Shown piece by piece: positions 1-43,598 of a stretch of DNA of 43,598 bases. Location: positions 1 to 43,598 of the IMG/VR virus record IMGVR_UViG_3300009431_000033, one strand, 5' to 3'. Made by a program: the position numbers and the translations under genes. Each line of letters begins with the position of its first letter. The stretch's first letter is position 1. The notes under the pieces are model-generated. The model did no database searches. It worked only from the letters and a program-made list of their open reading frames with translations, and was not told where the DNA came from. This DNA is from a virus.

Positions 1-76
1 CCGCACAAAAACAACCAGCTCCAGTAACACAATCTCCAGCACAAACATTACAACAAGCAAACAGACTTCCGCAGCC
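1..76. repeat. Direct repeat, left copy (identical to 43396-43471)
   Basis: 76 bases at the left end equal 43396-43471. Both copies lie in the same frame of the cysteine-rich fibre gene and encode ...GSLFACCNVCAGDC.... After base 76 the two sequences diverge, yet still encode similar residues (CGNLTLCD versus CGNVTICD). It is either an overlap of a circular genome or a repeated module of the gene. Confidence 0.95.
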
Positions 77-2230
77 TTGGGCCCCAGCATCACATAACGT
101 CAAATTCCCACAATTAAACACACCATCGCAACCAACTGCTAAAGCCCCACAAACACAAGCATTACAACAAGCTATAAATTCACAAATTGCATAAAGTGTG
201 CAAGCAGAAGCACACTGACATAAGGCTCCAGCTCCATCTTCGCACCAAGGACTACCGCCCAATTGGCTTCCGTTTGAATATATATTAGCTCCACATATAT
301 CACACCAGCCTCCTCCCCCTTGCCCATCGGTAACACACAAGTGTCCTCCCTCGGTGCACATATCCGAACCAGCATTACACCAACAAGTTCCACCCCAGTA
401 AGGTGCACAAACAGAACCAGCCCCACAAAGATTATTAGCAAAAACATCACAAAATACAGAATCATTACTATCTCTTACGCAAAGATTCCCAGAAATAACA
501 CAAACATCAGCAGCTCCGTTTCTCCATTGAGAACCAAGCCAACAAGTTGAGTCGACTGTTCCTGTTGCAGAACAAAGTATTCCCCCGCAAATATCACAGT
601 ATCCTACACCACCATCACAAACATGTAAACTCCCACCTTCAATTACTACATCAGAACCATTATTATCCCATGTACCAGTAAATAAAGAACCTACTGCACA
701 AAAATTGTTTCCACATATATCACACCAACCATTATCAGCAGAAGCTCTTACACACAAATCTCCTCCTAATATTTTTACATCTCCTGGATTGCACCAGACA
801 GGACCAATAAAACAACTACTTGCACAACTAATTGGAGCGCACAAACACTGAGAAGCCACGACGGGACCATTAAAATCTCCGCCATTATCAGAACAAACAC
901 AACCTCCATGAATACGAGTACTCCCACAAGTAACTGGGGCAGCAACACACGTATACCCAAATAAACTATCGAAGTGCCCTTCTAAAAATTGATTAGTCGA
1001 CTCCCCAACACAATAAGTACTATCTGCTGCAGACTCTATATTTTGAAAAGTCTGGGTAGAGGAAAAACTATTATCACTATCAGTTACAGCAAAAGTACCA
1101 TCAACATCTGGAACAGTCATAGTTCTAGTAGTCCCAGTCGTGACGCCAGAGACATCAACAGCAAAAACCTTTGTACTATCTGTCACATTAAAAACATTGA
1201 ACTGATTATCTGCAAAACTTGTTGTAGTACCAGATGCTCCACCAGTTGCGGTACTGGGAGTTTGCCCCCTCAAATCTATAGTTGATTTGTGACTCCAGTT
1301 CCCGGCAGTTATCTGGAAAGTCATTCTCGCAATCAAAAATCCAGTTGAACTTTCAAGATTAAATTCTCTCGGCATTGTCAACACATCAAATCCATCAACA
1401 TCTCGCTCCGCGTTTGCTTGATTAGCATAAGAGCCTGTCGGCAAATTAACCATGACTGGACCATATTCCCCGGACTTATTTGCTACTCCAAAAAAAGTTA
1501 AATTAAAAAATCTATTATTCAGCGTGGCGCCAGTCGAATCATCTGTAATGTCTGTTAAATCATTTATGTTGTGGTAAGAATCTCCATTCCAATTCACAAC
1601 ATGAATATCATCGGTTCTTGTATCTTTTGCTGGATAGGCATGTCTGTGCATTTGATAAACCACCCCGGAAGCGGATTTGAAATAAGCCTCCGTGCCAGAA
1701 ACATAATCAAAATAAGAGGAGTTTGCAGAGTCATCAGTTCCGTTTGGTCCAATCCCAGAGAACCATATAGCCCCCGCCCTTCTAATTCTTTCTGCCATGT
1801 GTGTCATGTGCCCCTGTAAGTCTGTATTTTCTAAATGGTCGTTCCAGTTTTGATTTATATAAACTCCCTCAGACGCAACGTACGCTGCACTGGGTACAAG
1901 AAGATATGCAATTTTAATATGCTCAGCATCAGTCGGGAAATTAGATGTACTCTTAGTTAAGACTTTTGTAGACTTCGGAATATAAATATAATTACCCTGA
2001 GGACTTGCGTCAGTCCCAGCAGTCAGAGTTATCGTTGCTGCAGGAGTAGTATCTAATAAAGTAAGACCATCAGAGAACTGCATTGTCAAATCTCCCGTAC
2101 CCGTTTGTTCAATCGACATTGTGACAACACCTCCAGCGGAAGTTACTAAGGCATCAAACGTTTCCTTAAAAGAGCCATTGAAGAATTTTTGCCTATCTGA
2201 GTTTGTTCTTCTTTCTACTTTTATCTTCAT
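1..2230 (-). CDS. Tail fibre protein with ultra-cysteine-rich repeats (3' end off the window)
   Basis: Open from ATG at 2230 through position 1, at least 743 residues. The N-terminal ~370 residues are beta-rich and virion-like. Around residues 370-400 is a fibre-type segment (FAVDVSGVTTGTTRTMTVPD) common in viral fibre proteins. From about residue 405 the protein carries 49 Cys in some 335 residues, in imperfect repeats of ~40-45 residues built on GG-x-L-x-V ... (W/Y/F)CDICG ... C. The start overlaps the upstream stop as ATGA. The frame at position 1 matches the right-end fragment (43052-43598), so both are probably one gene. Likely a receptor-binding fibre; the role of the cysteines (disulfides, metal binding) is inference. 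Confidence 0.8.
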   Translation of the reverse strand, partial: MKIKVERRTNSDRQKFFNGSFKETFDALVTSAGGVVTMSIEQTGTGDLTMQFSDGLTLLDTTPAATITLTAGTDASPQGNYIYIPKSTKVLTKSTSNFPTDAEHIKIAYLLVPSAAYVASEGVYINQNWNDHLENTDLQGHMTHMAERIRRAGAIWFSGIGPNGTDDSANSSYFDYVSGTEAYFKSASGVVYQMHRHAYPAKDTRTDDIHVVNWNGDSYHNINDLTDITDDSTGATLNNRFFNLTFFGVANKSGEYGPVMVNLPTGSYANQANAERDVDGFDVLTMPREFNLESSTGFLIARMTFQITAGNWSHKSTIDLRGQTPSTATGGASGTTTSFADNQFNVFNVTDSTKVFAVDVSGVTTGTTRTMTVPDVDGTFAVTDSDNSFSSTQTFQNIESAADSTYCVGESTNQFLEGHFDSLFGYTCVAAPVTCGSTRIHGGCVCSDNGGDFNGPVVASQCLCAPISCASSCFIGPVWCNPGDVKILGGDLCVRASADNGWCDICGNNFCAVGSLFTGTWDNNGSDVVIEGGSLHVCDGGVGYCDICGGILCSATGTVDSTCWLGSQWRNGAADVCVISGNLCVRDSNDSVFCDVFANNLCGAGSVCAPYWGGTCWCNAGSDMCTEGGHLCVTDGQGGGGWCDICGANIYSNGSQLGGSPWCEDGAGALCQCASACTLYAICEFIACCNACVCGALAVGCDGVFNCGNLTLCDAGAQGCGSLFACCNVCAGDCVTGAGCFCA

Positions 2231-3168
2231 AATAATGCCCCCTTGTAGAAATTTTGGCTAGCTACTGTTGCAACCACATAAACCGCATTGTCTACGTCAT
2301 CATAATCTATTGTCACAGAATCGCCAGCCTCCAAATAAGTCAAGGAGTTTGAACCGTCACTTGCGACATTTGATTCTCCAACAAAAAGTAGTCCTGTATT
2401 GTTTCTATCAGCTCTAATAATTATTGCATGGGTTGGTGTTCCCGTGAATGTTGCTTCCACGGCAGTAGTACCTACTGAGACCTTGCCGCCGCCCTCCATA
2501 TCCTTTCTAACTGGATTTGCAGCATCATCATATTCTTCAACAGAAATTTTTTGATTCCCGCCATTTGTAACCAGAACGTTTCTAAAATCTCCTGCTGGAG
2601 CTAACCCAGTTAAGACCGCCTTGACAAGCTCAGCATCATCTTCCGCAACAATAGAATCTCCAATTCTATGAGAGCTAGGTTTCACATAATATGGCTTTAA
2701 AGTCACCTGTAATCTAAAATGTGTTTGTAGTGTCGAACCGTTAATATATCTAATTCTATAAAATTTTGTCTGTGTTTGGAAGCTAAATGTCTTTCCTGTA
2801 CTTGCTGGAATAGTAAACACATCAGTGCCATCCACGTTTGTGCCGTCAGAACTAAAATCTATACATAATCCATCTGTTGCAGAAGCATGGGAGGCATTAA
2901 CTGTGACGATAATGACCCCAAAATTAGTTACATCTTCATAAGTACCAGTATAGGTCGCATCCGCTCCCAGAACAACTGATGTAGAATTGTCCGTACTTAC
3001 ATGCCCTGGTGCAATTGCAACCAATCCATTTTGCCCATTAGTAGCGATAACATCCGCAGCCAACAGCCCATCAGAACCATCAACCAGAATCGTTCTTTTA
3101 GCGTTAGCACTATTCTCATGCTGTATTTGTTCGATGTCTCCGACTGCTGTTTTGTTGTCTAGTGTCAT
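2227..3168 (-). CDS. Virion structural protein, probable baseplate/fibre adaptor
   Basis: 313 residues, rich in Gly, Thr, Asp and beta-strand patterns, with no membrane segment. The middle (about residues 70-160) looks like a beta-sandwich domain (segment FRLQVTLKPYYV at its end), and the C-terminus ends YVVATVASQNFYKGALL, as in proteins that sit just before fibres. It lies between small membrane proteins and the tail fibre and shares an ATGA overlap with the fibre gene. No enzymatic motif is visible. Placement in the tail tip follows from gene order; the exact role is not recognisable. Confidence 0.6.
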   Translation of the reverse strand: MTLDNKTAVGDIEQIQHENSANAKRTILVDGSDGLLAADVIATNGQNGLVAIAPGHVSTDNSTSVVLGADATYTGTYEDVTNFGVIIVTVNASHASATDGLCIDFSSDGTNVDGTDVFTIPASTGKTFSFQTQTKFYRIRYINGSTLQTHFRLQVTLKPYYVKPSSHRIGDSIVAEDDAELVKAVLTGLAPAGDFRNVLVTNGGNQKISVEEYDDAANPVRKDMEGGGKVSVGTTAVEATFTGTPTHAIIIRADRNNTGLLFVGESNVASDGSNSLTYLEAGDSVTIDYDDVDNAVYVVATVASQNFYKGALL

Positions 3169-21381: not shown

Positions 21382-22394
21382 AGAATTTCCTCATTCTCTT
21401 TAATCCATTTACTGATTCTCTTGAGCCCCTCTGTCGGGCCTATTTTCGGCTTCCACCCAAACATGTTCTTTGCTTTTTTGTAGTTGCATACGAAGTAGTA
21501 TAAGTCTCCGAATCTTCCTGGTTCTTTTTTGATAGTTTGGTGTGCTTCATTTATGATTGATAGCTCAGTTAGGCATTCGCCCAAAGAGATTGCATTGTCT
21601 ATTCCTCCGCCGATGTTATAGATTCCTTTGGCGCCTGTGTTAAACCACATCTCAAAAGCTCTAGCTGCGTCCTCAGCATAAAGAATGTCTCTGACTTGCT
21701 TATCTGTACCGAAGATTGTTATTGGTCTTTCTTTGATTGTTCGAATGGCGAAGTTGGCTACCCAGCCGTGGTCCATGCCTCCAAACTGTCTCTCCCCATA
21801 CATACCAGTCAATCGGAAAGACGCGGTCCTCATCCCGTATGTTTCGGCGAAAGCCTGGGTGTATAGTTCGGTTGAGCGCTTGCTAACATGCAATGGAGTT
21901 AGGTCTCCCTTTAATATAGCTAGTCCCTCATCAAACTCGGCTATATCATTTACAAATCTGGTTGTATCTTCTGTTAGCTCGTTGTTAATATCGTTTCCGT
22001 AGACATGGACTGATGAGCAGTTCACGAATGGAATTCCCTGTACTCGAGCGATGTTGAGCATATTTACAACTGACATTACATTGTTGCTGGCGTCATAAGC
22101 TGGGTCCTCTATTGCTATTGTCATTGCCGGCTGCGCCGCACAGTGTATAATAAAATTGATTCCCTTGAAGCTATTGCTTGTGACGTCTCTACAATCTGCC
22201 TTGTGAAACTCAACCCCCAAGCTTTCCAGAAACTTCAGATTGTGCTCCCTGGATTTTTTGGTATCAAAATTTGCTCTAACTAATTCATAATCAGTCAGGT
22301 TGTCAATCCCAACAACTTCCCATCCCCTTTTGGTGAAATATTCTGCCACATGCGTCCCAAGGAATCCAGCTACACCAGTAATTAGGACTCTCAT
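21378..22394 (-). CDS. NAD-dependent sugar epimerase/dehydratase (extended SDR)
   Basis: 338 residues from ATG at 22394 (MRVLITGVAGFLGTH), chosen because GGAGG precedes it by about six bases. GxxGxxG at 7-13 binds NAD. The active-site motif should read YxxxK, but here K172 follows T-P-L-H-V-S, putting Leu168 where the Tyr belongs. Otherwise the layout (VNCSSVHVYG, RQVRDILYAEDAARA-like) is normal. Start overlaps the radical-SAM gene stop. Could be an altered or inactive enzyme. Confidence 0.75.
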   Translation of the reverse strand: MRVLITGVAGFLGTHVAEYFTKRGWEVVGIDNLTDYELVRANFDTKKSREHNLKFLESLGVEFHKADCRDVTSNSFKGINFIIHCAAQPAMTIAIEDPAYDASNNVMSVVNMLNIARVQGIPFVNCSSVHVYGNDINNELTEDTTRFVNDIAEFDEGLAILKGDLTPLHVSKRSTELYTQAFAETYGMRTASFRLTGMYGERQFGGMDHGWVANFAIRTIKERPITIFGTDKQVRDILYAEDAARAFEMWFNTGAKGIYNIGGGIDNAISLGECLTELSIINEAHQTIKKEPGRFGDLYYFVCNYKKAKNMFGWKPKIGPTEGLKRISKWIKENEEIL

Positions 22395-22828
22395 TCTTTC
22401 CTCCATACTCTTTGGTTTGAACTACCAATTCTCCCCTTGATTCTTTTAGTTGAGTCATATCTTCCTGTTATTACCTTGTCGCATAGTTGGAATGCAATCT
22501 CCTTGTTTGGGTCACTACTTATTTCGTCTCGAGTATATCCTGTGAACATTGTTACTGGCAAGTCTGTTGCTGCTTTTAGTGCAGTTAGGAAAACTGCTGT
22601 ATCTTCTGCTTGAAAAAGCGGGTCTCCGCCGAGAAGGCAGACTCCGTCAATCGCTTCTGTTTTAACTAAGCTTAGCAATTCGGAGACTTTCATATCTCTT
22701 CCGCTTTCTGGGTCTTGTAGCTCTTTAGCGTAGCATCCCGGGCAAGCATGCTCACATCCGGCATAATGAATCTCATAAAGTACTCCTTCTTTGTGGGCGC
22801 AGTTATGTTCAGTTCTATTTATCTTCAT
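22391..22828 (-). CDS. Radical SAM activase, NrdG-like
   Basis: 145 residues from ATG at 22828 (MKINRTEHN) preceded by GAGGTG. C25-x3-C29-x2-C32 (CEHACPGC) binds the 4Fe-4S cluster; LLGGDPLF corresponds to the GGEP-type SAM motif; the C-terminal IGSSNQRVW is typical of class III ribonucleotide reductase activases. No NrdD partner lies in the window, so it would act on the host enzyme or on another substrate. Overlaps the upstream glycosyltransferase by 14 bases. Confidence 0.75.
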   Translation of the reverse strand: MKINRTEHNCAHKEGVLYEIHYAGCEHACPGCYAKELQDPESGRDMKVSELLSLVKTEAIDGVCLLGGDPLFQAEDTAVFLTALKAATDLPVTMFTGYTRDEISSDPNKEIAFQLCDKVITGRYDSTKRIKGRIGSSNQRVWRKE

Positions 22829-23876
22829 TGAACACCTCAAACATTTTGCTACAGAATTTATCCCAAGTCAGATTCTCTTCTACCCACATGTTTTCGGTAA
22901 CTGTCTGGATTGCGATTTTATCTTTGTCAGTACAAGAAAACTCTAATATGCTCTCTACAAATTCTTCATCTGACTTACATACGTTTCCTATTTTGTTTTT
23001 TGCTAGGATTGATGAGCAAGGGATTGTGTCTGCGACAAACGTAGGGCAACCCGCGCTCATTGATTCAAATACTGATAAAAAATTACCCTGGCCTGCCCCT
23101 GGGAAGATTGAGCAATCTGAGATATTGTAAAGCTCTCTGATTTTTTCTCTGGGGAGGAATCCGGTTAAAATCACATCTCCCATCAAGCCGTACTCTGCTA
23201 CCTTCTGCCTTACTAGGTCTAAGTAGCCAGGCACCTCTTTCCCCGCCAGAACTAACTTCGCATGCGGAATCTTTTCCTTAATTTTTTTGAATATCTCAAT
23301 CGTTCTTAACTGGTTTTTGGTTGGGGCTATGAATCCTATTTGGGAGATTACAAAATCATCGCCAGTTAAGCCGAAGAAGCCGTACGATGGCGGATGCCCA
23401 TAATCACTATTCGAGAAGAACTCCCAGTCTATTCCGTAGTTGATTACATGAGCTTTCTTCTTGTAAAGAGCTAGAAATCTTGCTGCGTTGAATTCGTCTC
23501 CGACAACAACCTTGAAATCCTTAGTGCATCGCAAATCGTTCTCTTTTGGGGTCGGATTTTCGTGGTGGGGCGGCTCATTGCAGAGCCAAGTAACATTAGC
23601 CTTCTTTGGGAAAACCATCAAATGCCCTGGGTCATTATGAACATTAACAATATCAAAGTCGTCAACTATTTGCTGCAAAAAGACGTGCATTGATGGAAAG
23701 TCGTCACAGAAGATTAATCTGGCTTCTTTTAGGTCTGCGCGCATGTCGTCGCACATTTCTGTTGTGATAATATTCACTTCGTGATGTCTGTTGGTTAGCC
23801 AGTTAGCTAATTGGACAATTACCCTTTCGGCTCCGCCATAAATCCAACAAGACGGATTAACTAGAAGAATTTTCAT
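22815..23876 (-). CDS. GT4-type glycosyltransferase
   Basis: 353 residues: MKILLVNPSCWIYGGAERV is the classic GT4 start (GGAE), with VISQIGFIAPTKNQ and LVLAGKEVPG in the second Rossmann domain and FLSVFESMSAGCPTF at the donor site (second Glu kept, first replaced). ATGA overlap with the small gene upstream. Confidence 0.8.
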   Translation of the reverse strand: MKILLVNPSCWIYGGAERVIVQLANWLTNRHHEVNIITTEMCDDMRADLKEARLIFCDDFPSMHVFLQQIVDDFDIVNVHNDPGHLMVFPKKANVTWLCNEPPHHENPTPKENDLRCTKDFKVVVGDEFNAARFLALYKKKAHVINYGIDWEFFSNSDYGHPPSYGFFGLTGDDFVISQIGFIAPTKNQLRTIEIFKKIKEKIPHAKLVLAGKEVPGYLDLVRQKVAEYGLMGDVILTGFLPREKIRELYNISDCSIFPGAGQGNFLSVFESMSAGCPTFVADTIPCSSILAKNKIGNVCKSDEEFVESILEFSCTDKDKIAIQTVTENMWVEENLTWDKFCSKMFEVFNEDK

Positions 23877-24019
23877 TGTCTCTTAATTAGGGTCAATTTA
23901 ATTATTTGGGCTCCGTCGTCAACGACCTCTAGCTTATCGTCCATTCTTACTTCAGCCACAATAATGTCTCCAAAATTCACGTCTTCCAGTAGGCTCTTGA
24001 TATATTCTTTAAGACGCAT
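23873..24019 (-). CDS. 48-residue protein beside radical SAM/SPASM enzyme
   Basis: ATG at 24019 (MRLKEYIKSLLEDV) has AAGGAGG 4-5 bases upstream, so it is preferred to the longer ORF from 24055. The acidic middle (VRMDDKLEVVDDGAQ) and strand-rich end give no family. Its start overlaps the end of the SPASM gene. It could be a substrate of that enzyme or a small accessory domain; unproven. Confidence 0.55.
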   Translation of the reverse strand: MRLKEYIKSLLEDVNFGDIIVAEVRMDDKLEVVDDGAQIIKLTLIKRQ

Positions 24020-25166
24020 CGCAGCCTCCTTGCTTATACAGAATACATCTCTCACAATTTGCTGGCACTTCGCCTCTTTGGTTTTGCGCCTTCATTTCTT
24101 CGAATCTTTCCCAAATTACATTGATGTCTTCTTTGAGTACGTTGCCCAAAGCAGTTCTGACCTGGAATGGTCTGTCGTTCTGTTCGTTCTGCGAACAGCA
24201 TGCGATGACGGTACCATCAACAAAGATGAAGGGCATACTCCAAGCAGAACAAGTTTTCATATCTTTCTTATTGACAGTATTGACGTTGAAGCCTACTCTT
24301 AGTCCTAATTCTGCTGCGCGCTTCATTACCGCATCTTTTTGCTCGTCTGTGATTCCAATCTCCATTCCTTCAATCTCTGGGTAGGTGTGGAGGATTTGGG
24401 TGAACTGGACTCTTTTGCAATCAACCCCGAGGGAATCAATCATATCCAAGTAAGGGACCATTTCGTGAATATTCTCTGACGAGACAATCATGTGGAACCA
24501 GAATTCTGGCCATGGAGAGTTTGCTTCGCGCTTTAGTTTGTCTAGCCGCTTGATTCCTTCGATTACTTTATCCCAACTTGAGCCCTCTCTTAGCTTCTCG
24601 TAGGTTTCCTTCGTGGAGGCGTCCAAACTAACATACAGCTTGTCCATCTTAATATCAACCAAGTGCTGTGCGTTTTCCTCATTCATGTAGATAAAATTAT
24701 CGAAATTCTCAATATAAATCCCCTTCTTCTTGATGTAATCCATCATCTTTGGAAATTCTGGATTGCAGTAAGATTCTCCGATGCCTGTTAGCCCAATCCA
24801 CTTCAATTGTGGGAACTGGTCTACAATGTGCTTGAATTCTTCGAAAGTCATGTTCTTGTTCTTCTCTTTCCAGTGGGTGTGTTCGCACATCTTGCATTTT
24901 AGATTACAAAAGGTTGAGACCTCAATCTCCAGGTAATGTGGTTGCATCTTTTTAGTGTAGTGAATCTTCAATAACTCTGGGTTTTGAGTCCAGTAAAAAG
25001 CAGAGAAATATGTCCAATTGTAAGTCCACCTTAATCCCTTTTCTTGGTATCTGGGATTTCCTACAAAGTCTTGGAAAGCTTGGTGCATTATGTTAACTTC
25101 GACTGCGTCGATTTCTTTGTCCGGATGACTTCCCCCTCGCATTGTGTAGTCAACAAAGTCAGTCAT
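24009..25166 (-). CDS. Radical SAM/SPASM-domain protein
   Basis: 385 residues. C87-x3-C91-x2-C94 (CNLKCKMC) is the SAM-radical cluster site; GLTGIGESYCNPEF holds the SAM-binding motif. The C-terminal ~85 residues have SPASM-type cysteines (TCSAW, IACCSQ, CERCILYKQGGC). Such enzymes modify peptides or sugars and recur in glycan clusters. Overlaps the upstream membrane-protein gene by four bases. Confidence 0.85.
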   Translation of the reverse strand: MTDFVDYTMRGGSHPDKEIDAVEVNIMHQAFQDFVGNPRYQEKGLRWTYNWTYFSAFYWTQNPELLKIHYTKKMQPHYLEIEVSTFCNLKCKMCEHTHWKEKNKNMTFEEFKHIVDQFPQLKWIGLTGIGESYCNPEFPKMMDYIKKKGIYIENFDNFIYMNEENAQHLVDIKMDKLYVSLDASTKETYEKLREGSSWDKVIEGIKRLDKLKREANSPWPEFWFHMIVSSENIHEMVPYLDMIDSLGVDCKRVQFTQILHTYPEIEGMEIGITDEQKDAVMKRAAELGLRVGFNVNTVNKKDMKTCSAWSMPFIFVDGTVIACCSQNEQNDRPFQVRTALGNVLKEDINVIWERFEEMKAQNQRGEVPANCERCILYKQGGCDAS

Positions 25167-26513: not shown

Positions 26514-26658
26514 TCACCTCCTTCAATGTCTCTTGAACTATCCAACTAACAAAGCATTCCATGTGTTTTTTGAAATTTTGGTAAACATTCGGGTATTTTT
26601 CGATGAATCTGTCTCTGATTTTTTCTACGATTAGCTCTTCTGTAGTTTTAGTTTTCAT
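26500..26658 (-). CDS. 52-residue helical protein
   Basis: ATG at 26658 (MKTKTTEELIVEKIRDRFIE) lies inside the chaperonin 3' end in another frame, with AAGGAG just upstream. Charged, predicted helical, one Cys. Overlaps the following membrane protein by 14 bases. Might be a chaperonin partner by proximity; no family recognised. Confidence 0.55.
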   Translation of the reverse strand: MKTKTTEELIVEKIRDRFIEKYPNVYQNFKKHMECFVSWIVQETLKEVNDES

Positions 26659-28069
26659 CTCCTTCTCCTGCTAATATGGCATCTAATTTAAGAATTTGAT
26701 TTGTGACTTGGGTTGCTGAGCTGATTGCATGCAGTTTAACCAAGACGGGCTCGAAAACTCCCTTCTCTCTAGCGTTTGAAATCCCAGAGACCATATCAAC
26801 CCCTTGATTTGAATCACCTTTTGCGTGAAGTGCTTTTAGGTTCGTTAGAGTCTCAATCGCGTCTAGCCCACAGTTTTCGGCTATGATAAGTGGGATGGAT
26901 TCAATCGCATCAGCAAATTTCTCTATGGCTAATTGTTCTTTGCCGCCTAATTGTAATTCTCGTAAATATTTGGCTGTTTGAATCTCAATGGCGCCTGCGC
27001 CGACCACCATATCCAAATTATGTCGAAGTAGTCTGAGTACATCATCCAATGACCTCTCAATCTCATCAAGAACGTGGTCTGTTGGGCCGTGGACAACTAG
27101 AGTCTCATAATCGCCTTTTACGTAAACCGCGCCGGGGTTTGAGTCGGCTCCTTTCATATAAGTGACCTCGGCCTGGCCTATGTGGTTCTCATCAATCAAA
27201 TCAGAACTTGTGATTGCCTTACTGCCTGTAGATAAGCAGATTGTATCAATATCAATTGGTCTAAAGATGGCTACGCCGGCGATTCCGGCCTCGGTCAGAT
27301 ATGCGTCGAATTCTTTGCATGTGTCGGTGTAAAATACCCATTCAACTCCCATTTCCTTCAGCTTATCAACAATCCCTCTTTTGAGTTTGGCATCTGCTTC
27401 TTCTATCTCGACTAGGTCTTTTGCATTGGTCACCTGAAAATTGTCCATCTTCAAATTCACCGGGAAATTCAAAACTGCTACTTTACCGTTTACGTGATTG
27501 GGCATTTGTTCGTCTCTAGTGAACCCTTGGAAGATGTGCCCTTTGAATATCTCGGTTTTGAACGGGTCAGAGCTTTTGATTTTGTAAGTCTTCAATTCGT
27601 CTGGATTTTTGGCGTCTTTTAGAATATCAATAAAGTGCTCTACTAATTCAGGTGTGATTTTCGTCCCAAACGCCGTTCGCATGATTTTCTCTTTGTCTGG
27701 CTCTTCGGATACGCCTTTTAGAAAATTCATAGCATTAGCAAGGGCTATATTATACCCATTAATCACCACCGTAGGATGGATGCCTTTTTTGGTTAGTTCT
27801 TGAGCGTTACTTAATAGATTACCGGCCAATACGACTGAGGTAGTGGTTCCATCGCCTACGGCCTCTTCCTGGGATTTAGCCAACTGCTTAAACAAATCAA
27901 CAATCGGATTGCCGCCCTTTAGATTCCCAACAATAGTGGCTCCGTCGTTTGTTAGTGCGACGATTTGACCTTTTGCTACAATCATCTTATTCATGCCTCT
28001 CGGGCCAAGTGTACTCCGAATCAAATCAGCAAAATTAATCGCCAGCTGGATATGACTGACATCATCCAT
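26648..28069 (-). CDS. Group II chaperonin (thermosome-like)
   Basis: 473 residues, against ~540-550 for cellular thermosome subunits. ATP-site motifs: STLGPRGMNKMIV (19-31), TNDGAT (40-45), GDGTTT (72-77), DEIERSLDDVLRLLRHN (335-351) and VVGAGAIE (355-362). The apical region (~165-310), including the helical protrusion area, is present but short. About 20 N-terminal residues of cellular forms and the Gly/Met-rich tail are missing. Folds proteins in a double ring; here perhaps capsid or fibre. Start overlaps the 62-residue gene. Confidence 0.92.
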   Translation of the reverse strand: MDDVSHIQLAINFADLIRSTLGPRGMNKMIVAKGQIVALTNDGATIVGNLKGGNPIVDLFKQLAKSQEEAVGDGTTTSVVLAGNLLSNAQELTKKGIHPTVVINGYNIALANAMNFLKGVSEEPDKEKIMRTAFGTKITPELVEHFIDILKDAKNPDELKTYKIKSSDPFKTEIFKGHIFQGFTRDEQMPNHVNGKVAVLNFPVNLKMDNFQVTNAKDLVEIEEADAKLKRGIVDKLKEMGVEWVFYTDTCKEFDAYLTEAGIAGVAIFRPIDIDTICLSTGSKAITSSDLIDENHIGQAEVTYMKGADSNPGAVYVKGDYETLVVHGPTDHVLDEIERSLDDVLRLLRHNLDMVVGAGAIEIQTAKYLRELQLGGKEQLAIEKFADAIESIPLIIAENCGLDAIETLTNLKALHAKGDSNQGVDMVSGISNAREKGVFEPVLVKLHAISSATQVTNQILKLDAILAGEGDEN

Positions 28070-29837: not shown

Positions 29838-30097
29838 TTATCCTCCACAAATATTTTCATAGTCCGACCTGAATCCTGAATCGAGACGTCTATTTTGCAA
29901 TCCCACTGAACAAACTTTCGTTCCGAGTTTTGTATAACCTCAAGGCGCGTAATGTCATTAAAGGGTTTTGGTAAGTCTATTTCTCCACCGGGAACACACT
30001 TGCAGAAGTCTCCGATATGAGTTCCGTTTGGGGTGGGCCATTTGCCGCATTTAGGGCATGCGGTTGGGTCCCGTATTATATCGGTCGTATTTTTCAT
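29834..30097 (-). CDS. 87-residue zinc-ribbon protein, first gene of leftward transcript
   Basis: CPKCGKWPTPNGTHIGDFCK gives the zinc site; the rest is beta-rich (KFVQWDCKIDVSIQ). ATG at 30097 is 25.5 bp from a TATA box, thus leaderless. It heads the long leftward gene array. Confidence 0.65.
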   Translation of the reverse strand: MKNTTDIIRDPTACPKCGKWPTPNGTHIGDFCKCVPGGEIDLPKPFNDITRLEVIQNSERKFVQWDCKIDVSIQDSGRTMKIFVEDK

Positions 30098-30118
30098 ATT
30101 ATGTACAGGGGTTACCTC

Positions 30119-30126
30119 TATTTAAA
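30119..30126 (-). promoter_or_regulatory. TATA box of leftward array
   Basis: TTTAAATA in AAAAGTTTAAATAGAGG, centred 25.5 bp from the ATG at 30097 (leaderless). Confidence 0.65.
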
Positions 30127-30177
30127 CTTTTGGGTTACTTATGCTCTATTTTACCTAAATAAGGCCCATATACTTGA

Positions 30178-30190
30178 GGTACTAAGTACT
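30178..30190. promoter_or_regulatory. Operator-like near-palindrome GGTACTaAGTACT
   Basis: Six-plus-one-plus-six inverted repeat with one mismatch; 11 of 13 bases equal the perfect palindrome GGTACTcAGTACC at 37937-37949, which lies beside another promoter. Confidence 0.5.
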
Positions 30191-30243
30191 ACTATTACAA
30201 ATTCCTTTATACCAAAGCCCCCCCTACTAACCTAATAATATTA

Positions 30244-30260
30244 TTTTATCGACGATAAAA
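30244..30260. promoter_or_regulatory. Perfect palindrome TTTTATCGaCGATAAAA
   Basis: Eight-base arms around one base, extended on both sides by TAATA/TAATA with a one-base bulge, in the control region. A regulator site or origin element is likely; the binder is unknown. Confidence 0.55.
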
Positions 30261-30448
30261 GTAATAATTACCTAACATATCCATATCTATCCAACAATAA
30301 TAATAATCATAATACCCATATTGTCTTATTGGGTTTGTGTTCTATGAGGGATAGTGTTGCCTTCGGCGAGTGGGAACATAATAGTATAATATGTTGTAAT
30401 TCGTTAGTAGTTTGTCACTAAAACAGAAAGACACTGCATAACGAAAGG

Positions 30449-30456
30449 TTTATAAG
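30449..30456 (+). promoter_or_regulatory. TATA box of rightward array
   Basis: TTTATAAG preceded by ACGAAAGG (BRE-like), centred ~25 bp before the ATG at 30478 (leaderless). Confidence 0.65.
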
Positions 30457-30477
30457 CATAATTTGGCTAAGGAATGT

Positions 30478-30741
30478 ATGATAATGGAAGAACATTATAA
30501 CACAAAGAGGAAGATACAAGCAATACCACTAAAGGAGCTTAAAAAGATGGGATGTTTGAGGTATGGTATGAGGAGTAGGAGTAGGAGGGTATTGGGTTAT
30601 TGCTTGATGATGAGTAGTTTGGTAATTCCTGATTTGAGTATCGGGATAGTGATGGGTTGTATGGTGCTTGGTTTGAATGTTCGGCTAATCGCCAAAGATA
30701 AAATTAAATGGGGATGGGATAGTGTGAGGTTGCGATGGTAG
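30478..30741 (+). CDS. Membrane protein, first gene of rightward array
   Basis: 87 residues from ATG at 30478 (MIMEEHYNTKRKIQA), set by the TATA distance. Basic N-terminal half (RSRSRR), then hydrophobic from VLGYCLMMSSLVIP to GCMVLGLNV, two helices. Overlaps the next gene by seven bases. Confidence 0.55.
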   Translation: MIMEEHYNTKRKIQAIPLKELKKMGCLRYGMRSRSRRVLGYCLMMSSLVIPDLSIGIVMGCMVLGLNVRLIAKDKIKWGWDSVRLRW

Positions 30742-30881
30742 AGAATGGGGTTAAGTTGGGGTTTCTGTTGTCTGGGTTCTGTATAATGCTTGGGGCTGGG
30801 GTAACTCTGTTAAGTAGGAGTTTTGGCTTTGGGGTGTTCTTTGGTGGGATATTGATAATTATTGCGGGGTTGGGACAATGA
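30735..30881 (+). CDS. 48-residue two-helix membrane protein
   Basis: MVENGVKLGFLLSGFCIMLG, then a Gly/Phe-rich second helix ending IAGLGQ. Coupled by overlaps to both neighbours (ATGA at the 3' end). Confidence 0.55.
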   Translation: MVENGVKLGFLLSGFCIMLGAGVTLLSRSFGFGVFFGGILIIIAGLGQ

Positions 30882-31000
30882 GATTATACGCTTTTCTAAA
30901 TAGCAAAAATAGAGGTGTTTGGGGCGATAATGTCATAACCAACACCCTACCACTCAATAAGAAGGATAAGGAGGTGTTTAATGGAAGAAGAAGAATATAA
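30878..31000 (+). CDS. 40-residue basic protein
   Basis: MRLYAFLNSKNRGVWGDNVI ... NGRRRI. ATGA overlap upstream; its last 20 bases overlap the next gene. No family recognised. Confidence 0.45.
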   Translation: MRLYAFLNSKNRGVWGDNVITNTLPLNKKDKEVFNGRRRI

Positions 31001-31379
31001 GGGCATTCTTAGAGGGTTGTTTAAGAAAGCTGATTATAAAGCGTTTTGTTGCCTTCGGCATGTTTCGAGTAGTGGAATGTTAAGGCGTATCTCGGTTTTT
31101 GTGATTGTGGATAATGAACCTATTTGTTTAGATTGGTATATTGAACAGATTGGCTTATACAAACGACATCATCAAAAGCAGGGTTTAGTAGTTCGTGGAT
31201 GTGGGATGGATATGGGTTTTAGTGTGGTTTATGATTTGAGCCGTGCTTTGTATCCGAAGGGCTTTAAGATTAGGGCGAAGGATACGAACAGAAACGCCAT
31301 CAACGGAGCTAAACCAACAGATAAGGGCTATAACTTTGATACGGATGGAGGTTATAGGTTAAGTAATAGTTGGATTTGA
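30981..31379 (+). CDS. Conserved viral protein of unknown function
   Basis: 132 residues: CCLRHVSSSGMLRRISVFVI, VVRGCGMDMGFSVVYDLSRA and a GGY motif near the end form a pattern I know from uncharacterised proteins of many phages. Cys, His and Gly positions suggest a metal or ligand site. AAGGAGGT precedes the ATG. Function unknown. Confidence 0.65.
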   Translation: MEEEEYKGILRGLFKKADYKAFCCLRHVSSSGMLRRISVFVIVDNEPICLDWYIEQIGLYKRHHQKQGLVVRGCGMDMGFSVVYDLSRALYPKGFKIRAKDTNRNAINGAKPTDKGYNFDTDGGYRLSNSWI

Positions 31380-31380
31380 T

Positions 31381-31403
31381 TTTTTTGCCCCTATGTTGAG
31401 GGG
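31381..31403 (+). terminator. U-run and CCCC/GGGG hairpin
   Basis: After the 132-residue gene: a T-run, then CCCCtatgttgaGGGG (31388-31403). A weak terminator or processing site. Confidence 0.3.
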
Positions 31404-31446
31404 TTGCCTAGCGGCGAGTTGGCGAACTTAGACGCACGTATAGAAA

Positions 31447-31575
31447 ATGGAAAAACAAAAATATTGGTATTTGGACGTTTCGGGTAGACTTAGAAGGTTT
31501 GACACGGAAGAGGAGAGAGATAAAGCCGTTTTGAATTTCCCACACGGAACTTATAAAACTGGAGAAGATAAATGA
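31447..31575 (+). CDS. 42-residue protein
   Basis: MEKQKYWYLDVSGRLRRFDT ... NFPHGTYKTGEDK. Reads like one small strand-rich domain. No family; no strong ribosome-binding site. Confidence 0.45.
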   Translation: MEKQKYWYLDVSGRLRRFDTEEERDKAVLNFPHGTYKTGEDK

Positions 31576-31605
31576 AGCTTAACAAGATAGAAGGAGGTGA
31601 GAAAG

Positions 31606-32040
31606 ATGGATTTTAAAGTTGGTGATAAAGTTAGACGACTTGCAGATGAGATGAGTAGCTGTTGGGAGCGACGGTGTGAGGAAATTGGAGCTAAACCTAA
31701 TGATGTTGCTGTTGTTACGAGTATTGACAGTGATGGTGACTTGGTGATTGAGTTTGACGGCAAGCAAATTGGAGGCGGTGGGGGCTGGCACGCTTGTAAC
31801 TTCGAGATTGCTGTTGTTAGAGGCAGACCGAAGAAGATTAAACCTGATAATTTGGTTAGGTATATGCTTTTTGGAACTGGGTGTTCTAACAAATCAAAGT
31901 TCTTCAAAGAAGAAGCCGAATTGAAGGACTATGCGAAGGGTAAGTCTACTGATAGCGATTGGACGGGCGAGTTGATTGGCTACAAATTAGTGCCTTTGTT
32001 TAAGGTTGAGAAAGCTGTTCGCTTTGTTAAGGTTAAGTAA
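31606..32040 (+). CDS. 144-residue protein with KOW/SH3-like N-terminus
   Basis: ATG at 31606 (MDFKVGDKVRRLADEMSS) follows GGAGGTG; the in-frame GTG at 31597 lies inside that site. DVAVVTSIDSDGDLVIEFDG gives a small barrel like KOW/SH3 domains. The rest has no recognised family. Confidence 0.55.
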   Translation: MDFKVGDKVRRLADEMSSCWERRCEEIGAKPNDVAVVTSIDSDGDLVIEFDGKQIGGGGGWHACNFEIAVVRGRPKKIKPDNLVRYMLFGTGCSNKSKFFKEEAELKDYAKGKSTDSDWTGELIGYKLVPLFKVEKAVRFVKVK

Positions 32041-32089
32041 GTTTGTGCTGTCGCACGAGAAATTATTATACTCTTATTGAGGAGGGTTG

Positions 32090-32155
32090 ATGGTTACCCT
32101 AAAGTTGAGAAAATCAACAAACCATCATCATAATCAAAAATGGAAAATAAAATAA
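32090..32155 (+). CDS. 21-residue leader-like ORF
   Basis: MVTLKLRKSTNHHHNQKWKI, with GAGGAGGG just upstream, overlapping the next start. A possible leader peptide; may be chance. Confidence 0.25.
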   Translation: MVTLKLRKSTNHHHNQKWKIK

Positions 32156-32367
32156 CAAGACAGAAGTTCATAAAGGAACTAATTGGAATATTCAGAGGTG
32201 AAGCTGGGTGTGGTATTCAATACGGAAATTGTCCTTGTAACACTTGCTTTCACCACTTAGACGCAGACTTCCAACATATTTGTTGGTTGATAGTTTTAGG
32301 GTTGAGAGGGGATTATGTTGATATGAGAGAGCAGTTGTTAAGTGACATTAGGGGGGAATTTGTATGA
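32140..32367 (+). CDS. 75-residue Cys/His-rich protein
   Basis: CGIQYGNCPCNTCFHHLDAD and FQHICW supply five Cys and three His in a row of metal-type spacing, then a helix and acidic end. No family recognised. ATGA overlap with the next gene. Confidence 0.5.
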   Translation: MENKITRQKFIKELIGIFRGEAGCGIQYGNCPCNTCFHHLDADFQHICWLIVLGLRGDYVDMREQLLSDIRGEFV

Positions 32368-32492
32368 GTGTTTTTAGATGTGAAGCTTGTGGAACTGAAT
32401 TTGATAGTGATTACGATGAGATTTACAAATTGGACGACTTGGATGTTTGTGAGGAATGTTATTTGGAGGCACAAGATAATGGTAGTTACTGA
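32364..32492 (+). CDS. 42-residue zinc ribbon
   Basis: MSVFRCEACGTEFDSDYDEI ... DVCEECYLEAQ: CxxC + CxxC rubredoxin-like knuckles. Overlaps both neighbours. Confidence 0.6.
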   Translation: MSVFRCEACGTEFDSDYDEIYKLDDLDVCEECYLEAQDNGSY

Positions 32493-32748
32493 AACGAGTT
32501 TGGAGGCGTATAAGGATTTGGATTTAGGAAAGCGACAGATGGAAGTCTACAACATAATCAAGAAGTTAGGGACTTGTAACAATATGATGATAGCGAGAGA
32601 TTTAGGATTGGGTGTTAATCAAATCACTGGTAGGGTTAATGAGTTGAGGAATAAGAAGTTTGTGGGCTTCGCCTTCAAAGACAAATGTCCATACACAAAA
32701 AAGAGGACTATGTTTTGGAAAATTGTAGGGGAGGTGAAGAATGCCTAA
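32479..32748 (+). CDS. Winged-helix DNA-binding protein
   Basis: 89 residues from ATG at 32479 (MVVTETSLEAYKDLDLGKRQ) with GGAGG ten bases upstream. QMEVYNIIKKLGTCNNMMIA, then NQITGRVNELRNKKFV is a wHTH with recognition helix and wing (MFWKIVG). Overlaps the next gene by eight bases. Confidence 0.65.
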   Translation: MVVTETSLEAYKDLDLGKRQMEVYNIIKKLGTCNNMMIARDLGLGVNQITGRVNELRNKKFVGFAFKDKCPYTKKRTMFWKIVGEVKNA

Positions 32749-33259
32749 TTGGTGCAATGGATGGGTAAGAGTTCACGGGAAACCTAAGAATGTTGAGGCA
32801 TTCTGTAAGCTGTTCGTCTTTGAAGAAGATGTCGGGAATAAAACAAAAATGGGGTATTTCGCAAGAAGTTTTGCTGAGATGAGCTGGGGAGATTTCAAGA
32901 AGGAAAATCTTGGTGGACACAAGGCAGAGTTTAATATTAATTTTGCTTGGAGTTGTTACACCTGTTTGATTGATGGCTACCCACAGCGTTCTAAAGAATG
33001 TGTCACTCTTGAATGGGCTTGTAGAAAATATAATGTTTTGGTTTTGATTGACACCGAAGAAGAAGCTATCGGCTTTGAAGAGCATATTGAGTGTGATGGC
33101 GATGGAAACCTAACGAATGAGTGTGAAAATATGAAATGCTATGAATGTAAATGCGGAAACAAACAAATGATTGCATCGTCTTATGATGTTAAGGATGTTG
33201 AATGTTGGGAGTGTGAAAAATATAATAGTTGGAAGGAGGTGAAAGAGGATGGGGCTTGA
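32741..33259 (+). CDS. YubB/Api92 ferredoxin-like domain protein with zinc-ribbon tail
   Basis: 172 residues. MPNWCNGWVRVHGKPKNVEA is the signature start of this phage/plasmid family. The C-terminal ~50 residues add CYECKCGNKQ and CWECEKYNSW, a zinc ribbon not usual in the family. GGGGAGGTG precedes the ATG. Function unknown, typically early genes. Confidence 0.65.
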   Translation: MPNWCNGWVRVHGKPKNVEAFCKLFVFEEDVGNKTKMGYFARSFAEMSWGDFKKENLGGHKAEFNINFAWSCYTCLIDGYPQRSKECVTLEWACRKYNVLVLIDTEEEAIGFEEHIECDGDGNLTNECENMKCYECKCGNKQMIASSYDVKDVECWECEKYNSWKEVKEDGA

Positions 33260-33698
33260 TATGTATTTGACTGCGAAGGTTTTTATTTGGAAGGATAAAG
33301 ACAGACACGACATTATGGTTAAGTTGAAGGATTTTGATGACTTCAAAGATTTAGACCTGACGCCTGAATATGTTGAGCTTGAAGTAATGAGGTGGAGGAA
33401 AGCTAACGCTATCCATCAATGGTTTGTTGATAATACTCAAGAGGGCTTTGATAATTGTAGACCACACGGAGTTAGTATGGAGGAGTTGAAGAAACTTTTG
33501 GATTTGGTTTGTAAGGTTTTGGATGACCACTCTAAAGCTGAGGATTTACTACCTACTCAAAGTGGGTTCTTTTTCGGCGGAACTGAATATGATAAATGGT
33601 ATTTTAAAGATTTAAAATACACCAAAGAAAAGCTAACGAAGATTACTACAGATAAATCATACGAAGGATTGGAGTTCGTATATTGTGCGTCATGGTAA
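33249..33698 (+). CDS. Conserved viral protein (MGLDMYL family)
   Basis: 149 residues. MGLDMYLTAKVFIWKDKDRH and the W/H-rich middle (RWRKANAIHQWFVDN), FFFGGTEYDKWYF and FVYCASW match a protein widespread in phages and prophages. Function unknown. AAGGAGGTG precedes the start. Confidence 0.7.
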   Translation: MGLDMYLTAKVFIWKDKDRHDIMVKLKDFDDFKDLDLTPEYVELEVMRWRKANAIHQWFVDNTQEGFDNCRPHGVSMEELKKLLDLVCKVLDDHSKAEDLLPTQSGFFFGGTEYDKWYFKDLKYTKEKLTKITTDKSYEGLEFVYCASW

Positions 33699-33967
33699 AG
33701 TGTAAGAAGTGCGGTGAGGTTATCGAGAGGTTATGCTCTTATGCTACTGCGACTTGTAATTGTTCTTTAGACGCCGAAGGCAACTTGGTTTATGAGGAAG
33801 AAGATATGGGTAGAATTGCAGAAACTATTGAATGGAGATGTCCTGAATGTGATGAGGTTTTGGCTTGGAATGAGGATGAAGCTGTTAGTTATTTGAAGGA
33901 TGGGCTAACCGCCAAAGAAAGAAAACTACCCTTCCCAAATCAATATGAGAGGATACAACATGGATGA
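33692..33967 (+). CDS. 91-residue zinc-ribbon protein
   Basis: ATG at 33692 (MVKCKKCGEVIERLCS) overlaps the previous stop. CKKC, TCNC and CPEC yield two zinc sites. Ends in a basic/Pro stretch. Confidence 0.6.
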   Translation: MVKCKKCGEVIERLCSYATATCNCSLDAEGNLVYEEEDMGRIAETIEWRCPECDEVLAWNEDEAVSYLKDGLTAKERKLPFPNQYERIQHG

Positions 33968-34118
33968 GTTTGAGAAATTAAAGGAAGAGAATGCGGAAAT
34001 AAGGGACAGCTTAGATGGTTACCTCCCGATTAAGAACTGGGAGAATGAAAGGTGTTGGGAATTAATAGACGAACTTGTTGAGAATGAATTGCAACAAGAG
34101 GAGATGTGTAACAGATGA
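33960..34118 (+). CDS. 52-residue acidic helical protein
   Basis: MDEFEKLKEENAEIRDSLDG, a coiled-coil-like acidic helix, then ELIDELVENELQQEEMCNR. Overlaps both neighbours. Function unknown. Confidence 0.5.
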   Translation: MDEFEKLKEENAEIRDSLDGYLPIKNWENERCWELIDELVENELQQEEMCNR

Positions 34119-34306
34119 AAATAGTTTGGTATTGTCCGAAGTGTAATTGGGTTTGTGTTAGTGATAGTGCCTTACGGCATTGCATGGATACTTGTAGGTG
34201 TGGTGAAACTGCTTTGGATTTGGAGGATTGCTATTGTCGGATTGTGGGTAGACCTGTTAGACTTGCTGTGTTCAAGAAGGGTAAATGGACGAGGAAGAGA
34301 AAATGA
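34115..34306 (+). CDS. 63-residue zinc protein
   Basis: WYCPKCNWVCVSDSALRHCM and CRCGETALDLEDCYC: eight Cys and one His. Basic end (KKGKWTRKRK). ATGA overlap. Confidence 0.6.
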   Translation: MKIVWYCPKCNWVCVSDSALRHCMDTCRCGETALDLEDCYCRIVGRPVRLAVFKKGKWTRKRK

Positions 34307-34488
34307 AAATCAAAGAGATAACTATGCGGACTAAACCAGAGAATATCCTTAAAGCTTTTAGGGAGAATGATTTGGTTAATTTGAGAACGCCGAAGGGCTA
34401 CATCTACTTAGTTGGTGGTATTTTGAATAAATTGGAGGGCGACAGACACTTCATAGCTATTGATAAGTGTTGGTGTGAGGTATGTTAG
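34303..34488 (+). CDS. 61-residue protein
   Basis: ATG at 34303 (MKIKEITMRTKPENILKA) shares ATGA with the previous stop and follows GAGG. LVNLRTPKGYIYLVGGILNK is strand-rich; ends CWCEVC. No family. Confidence 0.5.
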   Translation: MKIKEITMRTKPENILKAFRENDLVNLRTPKGYIYLVGGILNKLEGDRHFIAIDKCWCEVC

Positions 34489-34580
34489 AGGGATTGTTGA
34501 TGGTTGCGATGGCTTGGGCTGGGGATGAAGAATATTGGACTGGCGTCGATTACGCAAGGGAGGAAGAAGATGGACAATGA
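34482..34580 (+). CDS. 32-residue ORF
   Basis: MLEGLLMVAMAWAGDEEYWT ... REEEDGQ, overlapping the neighbours on both sides. May be real by its fit in the overlapping array; low certainty. Confidence 0.3.
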   Translation: MLEGLLMVAMAWAGDEEYWTGVDYAREEEDGQ

Positions 34581-34719
34581 TAAGATGATGGAGATACTGA
34601 AAAAATTAGAAGACTACAATATATTCTTAATTAGTTTTGATAATTTGGGCGATGTAAACATAGACAACCTAAAGGTTCACCCAGACTATTTGTTTGATGT
34701 GTTGGAGGATTTTGAATGA
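34570..34719 (+). CDS. 49-residue acidic protein
   Basis: ATG at 34570 (MDNDKMMEILKKLEDYNI) after GGGAGG. VHPDYLFDVLEDFE ends it. No family; precedes the ATPase with ATGA overlap. Confidence 0.5.
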   Translation: MDNDKMMEILKKLEDYNIFLISFDNLGDVNIDNLKVHPDYLFDVLEDFE

Positions 34720-35309
34720 AGATTGAGAAGTTGTTTAATAAGCCGAAGATTATTGGGGTTATTGCTGATGTAAATCAAGGTAAGTCGAACTTTGTGTATC
34801 ACTTGATTACTCTGATTAAGAAGAGAGTTAGCTTGGTGACTTATGGACTTCGTAAAATTGTTGGTGGTAGAGTGATTAGTTCTCTCGAAGAGTTGGAGCA
34901 GATTAAGGATAGTGTGATTGTGATTGATGAGTTTTTTAGTCTGTTCGACTTAGACAATAGGCACAAGCGGAAACTAATCGAGAATACATTAAGGATGATT
35001 AACCACAACAACAATATTTTAATCTTGGTTGGATTGCCTGAGAATTTCAAGAAGTTTATTTGTGGAAAACTCGACGAGGTGTTCTTCAAGAAGGTGACTT
35101 ACGGTGATTTCATCAACGGGGGCAGAGCCAAAAAGATTATTATGAGTTATATGGGGAGAGAAAAGGGAAGTTATATTTTAGATGTCGGAGTTGGAGAGGC
35201 GTTGCATTACGATGGGTTACACTACGAACTAATCAAAGTTCCGTATCTTAAGGAGTTCGATACTAAGGCAAAGAATAAAACACTCCTAAAAACGTGTGGG
35301 AAAATGTAG
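34716..35309 (+). CDS. P-loop ATPase (Zot/AAA-like)
   Basis: 197 residues. Phosphate-binding loop IADVNQGKS (16-24), Walker B SVIVIDEF (66-73), a short NTPase core, and a basic tail. Closest in feel to small P-loop ATPases of filamentous and archaeal viruses; may act in replication or transcription. The amber stop at 35307-35309 is followed by 32 in-frame sense codons to TAA at 35408, overlapping the next ATG. It is the only clear ATPase in the rightward block. Confidence 0.7.
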   Translation: MKIEKLFNKPKIIGVIADVNQGKSNFVYHLITLIKKRVSLVTYGLRKIVGGRVISSLEELEQIKDSVIVIDEFFSLFDLDNRHKRKLIENTLRMINHNNNILILVGLPENFKKFICGKLDEVFFKKVTYGDFINGGRAKKIIMSYMGREKGSYILDVGVGEALHYDGLHYELIKVPYLKEFDTKAKNKTLLKTCGKM

Positions 35310-35340
35310 AAAAAAAATGTAGAAAAAAAATGTAGAAAAA
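35301..35340 (+). repeat. Tandem 13-base repeats AAAATGTAG(A)n
   Basis: Three copies of AAAATGTAG separated by A-runs, period 13, at and after the ATPase stop codon. The period changes reading frame with each copy; a site prone to slippage. Confidence 0.75.
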
Positions 35341-35407
35341 GCGTTCAAGAAAGTGTGGGTGAAAATGTGAAGGTTCAGAGAACTAAATTGAGTAGGAGGA
35401 AAAAATA

Positions 35408-35746
35408 ATGGGATTTGAATTAGTTCAAAAGTCTTTCAGAATGGGTGAAACATTACCGCTTGACTGCGTGTCTGTCGGGAAATGTAGTGTTTCATTTGGA
35501 CATGATTTCGACGAACTTTTAAGCAAATGCACTCATGTAGAAGTCTATTTTGATGTTGCTGGGAGAAGGATTGGGTTAAAACCAACCGACAATGCACTTC
35601 AAGGATTTAAGCTTAGTGTTCCGAACAAGAACTCAAAGAGATATTCGATTACTGGGACTTGGGTTAAGAGAATAAGCGTCGGGCAACATACTGCTGAGAT
35701 TGAAGACGGCATGATTGTATTCGAAGGCGACATCGTTTCGAAATAA
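35408..35746 (+). CDS. 112-residue protein of unknown function
   Basis: MGFELVQKSFRMGETLPLDC, HVEVYFDVAGRRIGLKPTDN and a C-terminal strand stretch. Strand-rich with a pattern recalling small archaeal and viral DNA-associated proteins, but not assignable. TAGGAGG precedes ATG. Followed by a T-run. Confidence 0.55.
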   Translation: MGFELVQKSFRMGETLPLDCVSVGKCSVSFGHDFDELLSKCTHVEVYFDVAGRRIGLKPTDNALQGFKLSVPNKNSKRYSITGTWVKRISVGQHTAEIEDGMIVFEGDIVSK

Positions 35747-35757
35747 ACCCAAAACAA

Positions 35758-35772
35758 TTTTTTATTTTTTTT
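35758..35772 (+). terminator. T-tract after the 112-residue gene
   Basis: About 14 T interrupted by one A, the archaeal intrinsic-terminator pattern. A small gene begins at its end. Confidence 0.5.
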
Positions 35773-42687: not shown

Positions 42688-43052
42688 TTTGATGAATGTA
42701 TGTCTTCGACGACAGGGATGAGTTTGATTTCTCCTCCGTAACTCTCAACGAACCTTCGTTCTTCTTGGTTGATTGTTTCGATATTGTAGTCTCCTCCCTT
42801 AACATATACCAGGGGTTTAAGCTTTTTAAGCTCTTCTATTACGCTATCTACTATCCTAACTTCGGCTACGCCTTTGATTGCTAGGATTATTTTTGCTCTC
42901 TCTCGTTCGGACATAATTATTCTTCTGTCGCAACTCTCATCAGACATAACACCGACGACAAGATGACCTAATTTGCCTGCTTTTTGTAAATAATCCACAT
43001 GCCCTGCATGGAGTATATCAAACACGCCATTGGTCCATATTATTTTTTCCAT
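42675..43052 (-). CDS. HldE/RfaE-type nucleotidyltransferase
   Basis: 125 residues. TNGVFDILHAGHVDYLQKAG has the HxGH site (H15, H18); LVYVKGGDY (about 76-84) is typical of the ADP-heptose-forming adenylyltransferase branch. Ends IHSSKWKK where SSxxI normally lies. Directly follows the fibre gene (TAATG) and precedes the GT9 gene. Glycerol- or other phosphosugar activation is an alternative. Confidence 0.75.
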   Translation of the reverse strand: MEKIIWTNGVFDILHAGHVDYLQKAGKLGHLVVGVMSDESCDRRIIMSERERAKIILAIKGVAEVRIVDSVIEELKKLKPLVYVKGGDYNIETINQEERRFVESYGGEIKLIPVVEDIHSSKWKK

Positions 43053-43598
43053 TATACTATGCTAACTATAATACCTCCGCATACTGTTACTGTTGCAGCG
43101 TCGCCATTTGTGAAAGTGGCGTCTACTCCTCCGTATCCACAAGTCATAAAACAACAACAAGTTTGAACACAGTTTTGCGCATGTATACATCCACAACCAG
43201 ACGCACCATTATCACAAAGGGTCAAGTTTGCGCAGCCGCCACAAAACTCTCCATTATCTATATAAAATCCGCAACAGCAAGCACACATTCCACATTGTGC
43301 AATCACCCATCCATCACTCCCCATACCTGAACCTCCGCATGCGCAGATATTCCCACAACAAGAAATCACATCACAGTGCCCTATCGAACAATTCCCCGCA
43401 CAAAAACAACCAGCTCCAGTAACACAATCTCCAGCACAAACATTACAACAAGCAAACAGACTTCCGCAGCCAGCAGTACCTTGGTCACAAATCGTTACGT
43501 TTCCACAATTAAAACATCCATCATTATTAATTATTAAATTTGAATCACTACAAACATCTCCTACTGCGCAGACAATTCCTCCAGCACAAACATTACAA
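43052..43598 (-). CDS. Cysteine-rich C-terminus of the tail fibre (5' end off the window)
   Basis: 181 residues, open at the right edge, with 36 Cys (about 20 percent). Repeats: CGNVTICDQGTAGCG, then CANLTLCDNGASGCG, and CNVCAG. The last ~20 residues lose Cys (GGIIVSIV end). Its stop overlaps the next gene as TAATG, placing it upstream of the nucleotidyltransferase in one transcript. The 76-bp repeat and the shared frame link it to the gene at position 1. Confidence 0.75.
   Translation of the reverse strand, partial: CNVCAGGIVCAVGDVCSDSNLIINNDGCFNCGNVTICDQGTAGCGSLFACCNVCAGDCVTGAGCFCAGNCSIGHCDVISCCGNICACGGSGMGSDGWVIAQCGMCACCCGFYIDNGEFCGGCANLTLCDNGASGCGCIHAQNCVQTCCCFMTCGYGGVDATFTNGDAATVTVCGGIIVSIV
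43396..43471. repeat. Direct repeat, right copy (identical to 1-76)
   Basis: See the left copy. The window continues 127 bases past this repeat with sequence that does not match bases 77 onward. Confidence 0.95.

Follow-up and report, generated by a model that had tools for sequence, protein, structure and literature searches.

The last gene in the tail operon of an environmental virus known from a linear IMG/VR record of 43,598 bases (analysed at its full length and referred to below as the window) encodes a tail fibre with a distal module built of cysteine repeats, which is absent from 43 traced relatives. What was known before is a mention of Cys-rich tail spikes, and the Cys-repeat distal module appears to be new. 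Fibres are usually Cys-poor. Tentatively, with a confidence that falls a little short of an even call, we read the gene as a receptor-side tail fibre the neighbouring cysteines of which would form disulfides that weld it.

On the minus strand, the gene begins at position 2230, and 743 residues later the contig ends at base 1, leaving an open first piece (2..2230, minus strand) the residues 1-384 of which are common to 43 other records. The break in the contig falls inside the gene, where 76 bp are repeated exactly; the first copy is located at the contig end (1..76, minus) and the second (43396..43471, minus) inside a terminal piece of 181 residues (43052..43597, minus; 36 Cys) closed by a stop codon. 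The frame is lost if the contig ends are simply abutted, while their overlapping at the repeat produces one intact ORF of 857 residues; judged from these frames, the two pieces are one gene that appears to have been split by assembly. With this overlap, the 127 bases preceding the repeat in the terminal piece would represent a further repeat copy or its variant, so that the length of the gene and its number of repeat copies are uncertain. The operon runs in the order of terminase, portal, capsid, tape measure and collar, with the fibre gene being the last. Its ORF and the upstream tail gene (2227-3168) share 4 nt, and the last base of the terminal piece is common with the next gene (42675-43052); such overlaps of 1-4 bases with both neighbours resemble a translation-coupled operon.

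Cysteine is completely absent from residues 1-406, and 49 cysteines are found in residues 407-743 (337 residues), which together with the 36 in the terminal piece confirms the counts given in the original prediction (49 in about 335 residues and 36 of 181 in the right-end part). In combination, both Cys-rich pieces contain 16.4% Cys, compared to 1.4% in the remaining genes of the virus and 0-1.1% in its other head and tail proteins; given the 1.4% background, the probability of such an excess arising by chance is about 1e-33 for residues 407-743 and about 1e-30 for the terminal piece. The domain is also rich in Gly (17%) and nearly devoid of Lys (0.2%) and Arg (0.8%). Across positions 1-1015 of the window the fibre frame is the only stop-free one among six, the other two frames of the same strand holding 12 and 32 stops; a wrong reading frame was dropped as an explanation. 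A change of the genetic code was dropped as well because of the normal Cys content of other genes. Base composition alone predicts 5.9% Cys against 14.5% observed, and third codon positions, taken without Cys codons, are similar to those of the Cys-free N-terminal part and show no strong skew, implying selection on residues rather than base bias; a composition artefact was dropped too. That the Cys-rich stretch is non-functional or an artefact, either a chimera of the assembly or a side effect of base composition, is the least probable of the readings considered and hardly credible. It could be prompted by the contig break inside the gene and by the out-of-frame naive circular join, but the two long open frames share diverged repeats as well as the 76 identical bases, joining by overlap keeps the frame, and cysteines are conserved amid synonymous drift with no strong skew at third positions.

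Two kinds of repeats are distinguished in the Cys module, all on the minus strand. A Cys-rich leader delimited by Cys positions (aa 407-471, 818..1012) is followed by four tandem type I units defined by repeat alignment: unit 1 (aa 472-514, 689..817) with 6 Cys, unit 2 (aa 515-560, 551..688) with 4, unit 3 (aa 561-605, 416..550) with 5 and unit 4 (aa 606-654, 269..415) with 7. Their consensus, W.N.GSDV.I.GG.L.V.D....(W/Y/F)CD(I/V), bears out the previously described GG-x-L-x-V ... CDICG pattern, which was found in all four units (aa 472-654) with CDICG being exact in three of them and replaced by CDVFA in unit 3. Repeat comparison revealed three type II units with the consensus CxNLTLCDxGAxGCG: one cut by the contig end (aa 692-743, 2..157), one in the terminal piece with 71% identity to the first (43397..43570), and a third, diverged one (43127..43273). 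Between diverged type I units conservation reaches 62% for Cys columns, 60% for Gly, 67% for Asp and 67% for Trp; Cys columns are kept better than Val, Ile, Ser and Thr, and synonymous sites differ. In other units, the Cys columns are occupied by K, V, H, D, R, L, F or Y, and this variety of replacements makes it appear that cysteines were gained at tolerant positions. Hydrophobic neighbours of Cys (at ±1) number 27 in type I units, compared to an expectation of 13, a level attained in 0 of 2000 permutations, and such alternation is the pattern of a beta strand with one hydrophobic face and one Cys face. The terminal piece, mostly type II, demonstrates no such enrichment (17 neighbours against 16.7 expected) and has an excess of Cys spaced by six (13 against 6.9, p 0.006). 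Thus, the proposal that a fibre beta-repeat had acquired cysteines gains indirect support from hydrophobic alternation and from the substitutions in Cys columns, although a homologue of the repeat lacking Cys, which would prove the direction of the change, did not turn up. The AF2 monomer model of the Cys part is mostly below pLDDT 50, with 33 for the terminal piece.

The N-terminal part of the protein is of quite different character. This putative virion-anchoring module (aa 1-384, 1079..2230, minus strand), delineated by identity to relatives, AF2 model and shoulder-domain alignment, has no Cys and was also found in 43 records (41 contigs of viruses and 2 of metagenome-assembled genomes, some near-duplicates included) with 43-64% identity. 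It is widespread in viral contigs and has a conserved YINQNWN stretch; no Pfam family was assigned to it, and among PHROGs there is only a short overlap with phrog_13925. The AF2 model has pLDDT of about 90 across most of aa 20-320 and is similar to the N-terminal regions of caudoviral fibre proteins from BFVD. The best VIA-align match is the fibre of cyanophage A-1(L) (Z 8.9, rmsd 2.2 over 84 residues), followed by the receptor-binding protein (RBP) of lactococcal phage p2 (Z 7.5), MTD (7.1) and the fibre of Haloferax tailed virus 1 (HFTV1; 6.4), and in VIA-align of the Foldseek PDB matches ranks 1-22 are filled by phage proteins (tail, fibre or receptor-binding) and T6SS baseplate proteins alone. 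With middling Z values but a consistent kind of match, the alignment supports the assignment of the modelled module as a fibre shoulder. Together, the fold, the operon position and the common N-terminal module support the tail fibre identity put forward originally. The four named proteins likewise combine this N-terminal fold with a variable C-terminal module, and to our knowledge none of them has been described with a Cys-repeat distal part. All 43 relatives have unlike C-termini, and none of the proteins in the set has more than 1.5% Cys; the Cys part is thus a distal module that this virus has swapped or altered.

No relative of the Cys module came to light in the searches made. Repeat-unit alignments A1 and A2 compared with IMG/VR, as well as the terminal piece alone, the Cys domain alone and two degenerate DNA patterns, revealed no relatives; these collection scans rely on near-exact words, and a strongly diverged Cys module could escape them. 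No accepted relative was obtained by tblastn in phages with Cys masked or unmasked; the sole match (E 0.1), a Vibrio phage tail sheath, was rejected as having 5 Cys in 646 residues. PHROGs, Pfam and PDB produced no match to the module. In a local profile search over 2139 frames of relatives the module found only itself, and the weak, non-significant profile matches lie in the fibre genes of the relatives.

Several other genes bear on the host and its environment. A chaperonin gene (26648-28069, minus strand; 473 aa) belongs to group II, thermosome-like (Cpn60_TCP1, E 7.7e-105), and was not found in 35 related virus records. Its score with the archaeal thermosome model is 321 bits (below the model cut-off), compared to at most 76 for GroEL models, and this match suggests, though does not prove, a tailed virus with an archaeal host. 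The product of 22391-22840 (minus) is an NrdG-type anaerobic ribonucleotide reductase activating protein, the large subunit not having been noticed; judging by gene content, the setting or host of the virus is probably anoxic. Six tRNA genes (Trp, Ile, Asn, Thr, Asp and Met) are located at 36523-37101 (minus), those inspected apparently having no encoded CCA end. The region 30000-36000 is a plus-strand gene block with GC skew of about +0.4, the rest of the genome being near -0.1, and encodes two small proteins rich in Cys (7.6% and 8.5%), one of which is zinc-ribbon-like. A hyperthermophile proteome effect as the source of Cys was dropped; IVYWREL is 0.369, corresponding to an estimate near 10 C by this index, crude for a virus, and overall Cys is 1.4%. 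Thermophilic archaea possess disulfide-rich proteins for stability (PMC3177088), and while the archaeal setting is similar, here only one domain is affected and the crude composition index is not thermophile-like.

The closest precedent comes from two viruses of methanogens or methane-oxidising archaea, tail spikes of which are among their most Cys-rich proteins with a speculated role in entry (PMC9723712). A Cys-rich tail attachment protein, an anoxic setting and radical SAM genes are common to both cases, but that text devotes one sentence to the subject and is silent on repeats, densities and sequences. Also, cysH or dcm is carried by those viruses, whereas a search for PF01507 (cysH) and PF00145 (dcm) found neither in the present record, which may be incomplete, with controls positive. 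Open-access literature, within its incomplete coverage, yielded no description of a Cys-repeat fibre. The earlier statement that no fibre like this had been described was nearly right, requiring correction for this brief remark on Cys-rich tail spikes.

As for the way such a fibre might operate, the conserved N-terminal shoulder would fix it to the tail, and the variable distal part (about 450 to more than 520 residues) would form a beta-structured shaft or tip composed of two Cys-rich repeat kinds. The fibre is expected to be a trimer, as in its fold relatives, with a core presumably packed by hydrophobic side chains and with cysteines on the outer or inter-strand face. Once the virion exits the reducing cell, neighbouring cysteines may pair as disulfides within and between chains, and so weld the fibre, which is rich in Gly and poor in Lys and Arg, into a resistant rod that might be loosened by reduction at the surface of the host. 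A disulfide ladder, a metal-binding shaft and a covalently locked tip were named as candidate roles in the original prediction. We favour this disulfide reading because the cysteines are spaced along the presumed strands rather than knuckle-like, and because disulfide-networked virions exist, as in Agrobacterium phages Milano (PMC10811340) and 7-7-1 (PMC12796354). Cys is raised in virion proteins in both of these phages and here, and the Milano fibres are disulfide-linked to the baseplate; in the two phages, however, Cys amounts to approximately 2-2.6% over many proteins, in contrast to 16% in one domain here, and the Milano-type rise across many structural proteins was not observed, the other head and tail proteins remaining within the range given above. 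Against disulfides, the occurrence of 4, 5, 6 or 7 Cys per type I unit implies no fixed pairing scheme, the probably anoxic setting indicated by the reductase activating protein would make disulfides form less readily, and no thioredoxin-family gene was found in the record.

The main rival to disulfides is metal binding, in terms of thiols holding Fe, Zn or other soft metals in an anoxic, metal- or sulfide-rich setting and either stabilising the trimer or acting as bait for the metal uptake of the host, a role that has been suggested for phage fibres carrying iron. Iron-binding tail fibres with HxH motifs are known indeed (T4 gp37 and phage R22Y; PMC11705849), and the idea of a ligand-rich shaft is common to them and to the present fibre; the very high thiol density and the probably anaerobic host speak for such a role. 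Nevertheless, Cys takes the place of His here, HxH being found 0 times in both pieces of the domain, and CxxC is not enriched (5 and 6 in the two pieces against 7.0 and 6.9 in shuffles), so that spaced cross-strand pairs fit better than zinc or Fe-S knuckles. Neither the paired CxxC excess nor the Pfam match typical of zinc-finger or Fe-S Cys domains was detected, and no metal-binding match was returned by Pfam or PHROG even with Cys masked; on balance, we regard metal binding as unlikely. Still less probable is a thiol-active adhesin, free cysteines of which would react or pair with thiols or disulfides of the host surface (S-layer, pili) and provide covalent attachment. The distal, variable position typical of receptor-binding parts and the location of Cys opposite to a hydrophobic face are in line with it, but cysteines extend across the whole distal part rather than one tip, and it comes with no known host partner.

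A radical SAM/SPASM gene (24009-25166, minus strand) is located amid glycosyltransferase and sugar-nucleotide genes occupying 17.9-26.4 kb. Cross-linking of Cys in peptides is a known activity of this enzyme class, and modification of the fibre cysteines by the viral enzyme, for instance via thioether cross-links, might be imagined, its product having both Radical_SAM and SPASM domains and the enzyme being found in 0 of 35 related records devoid of the Cys module. These records are mostly fragments, however, the gene belongs to the sugar-nucleotide and glycosyltransferase cluster some 18-22 kb away from the fibre gene, and the NCBIfam model that fits it best, with a score far under the cut-off, is that of a tungsten-oxidoreductase maturase; we consider this modification very improbable. 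In a bolder version, possible but rather doubtful, the distal half would be a thiol polymer, i.e., beta repeats with one face converted to Cys, serving as a continuous disulfide ladder across three chains or as an array of metal or thiol-exchange sites that would act in entry into the host in anoxic surroundings, and perhaps undergoing maturation by the radical SAM enzyme that the virus encodes.

At about 85 Cys in each chain, and around 250 in each particle fibre should it be trimeric, the protein would represent either extreme covalent stabilisation or a thiol or metal surface active in attachment. Either would be a new fibre chemistry and may be considered as a template for strong protein rods, and a concrete sequence now stands behind a passing remark on viruses of anoxic archaea.
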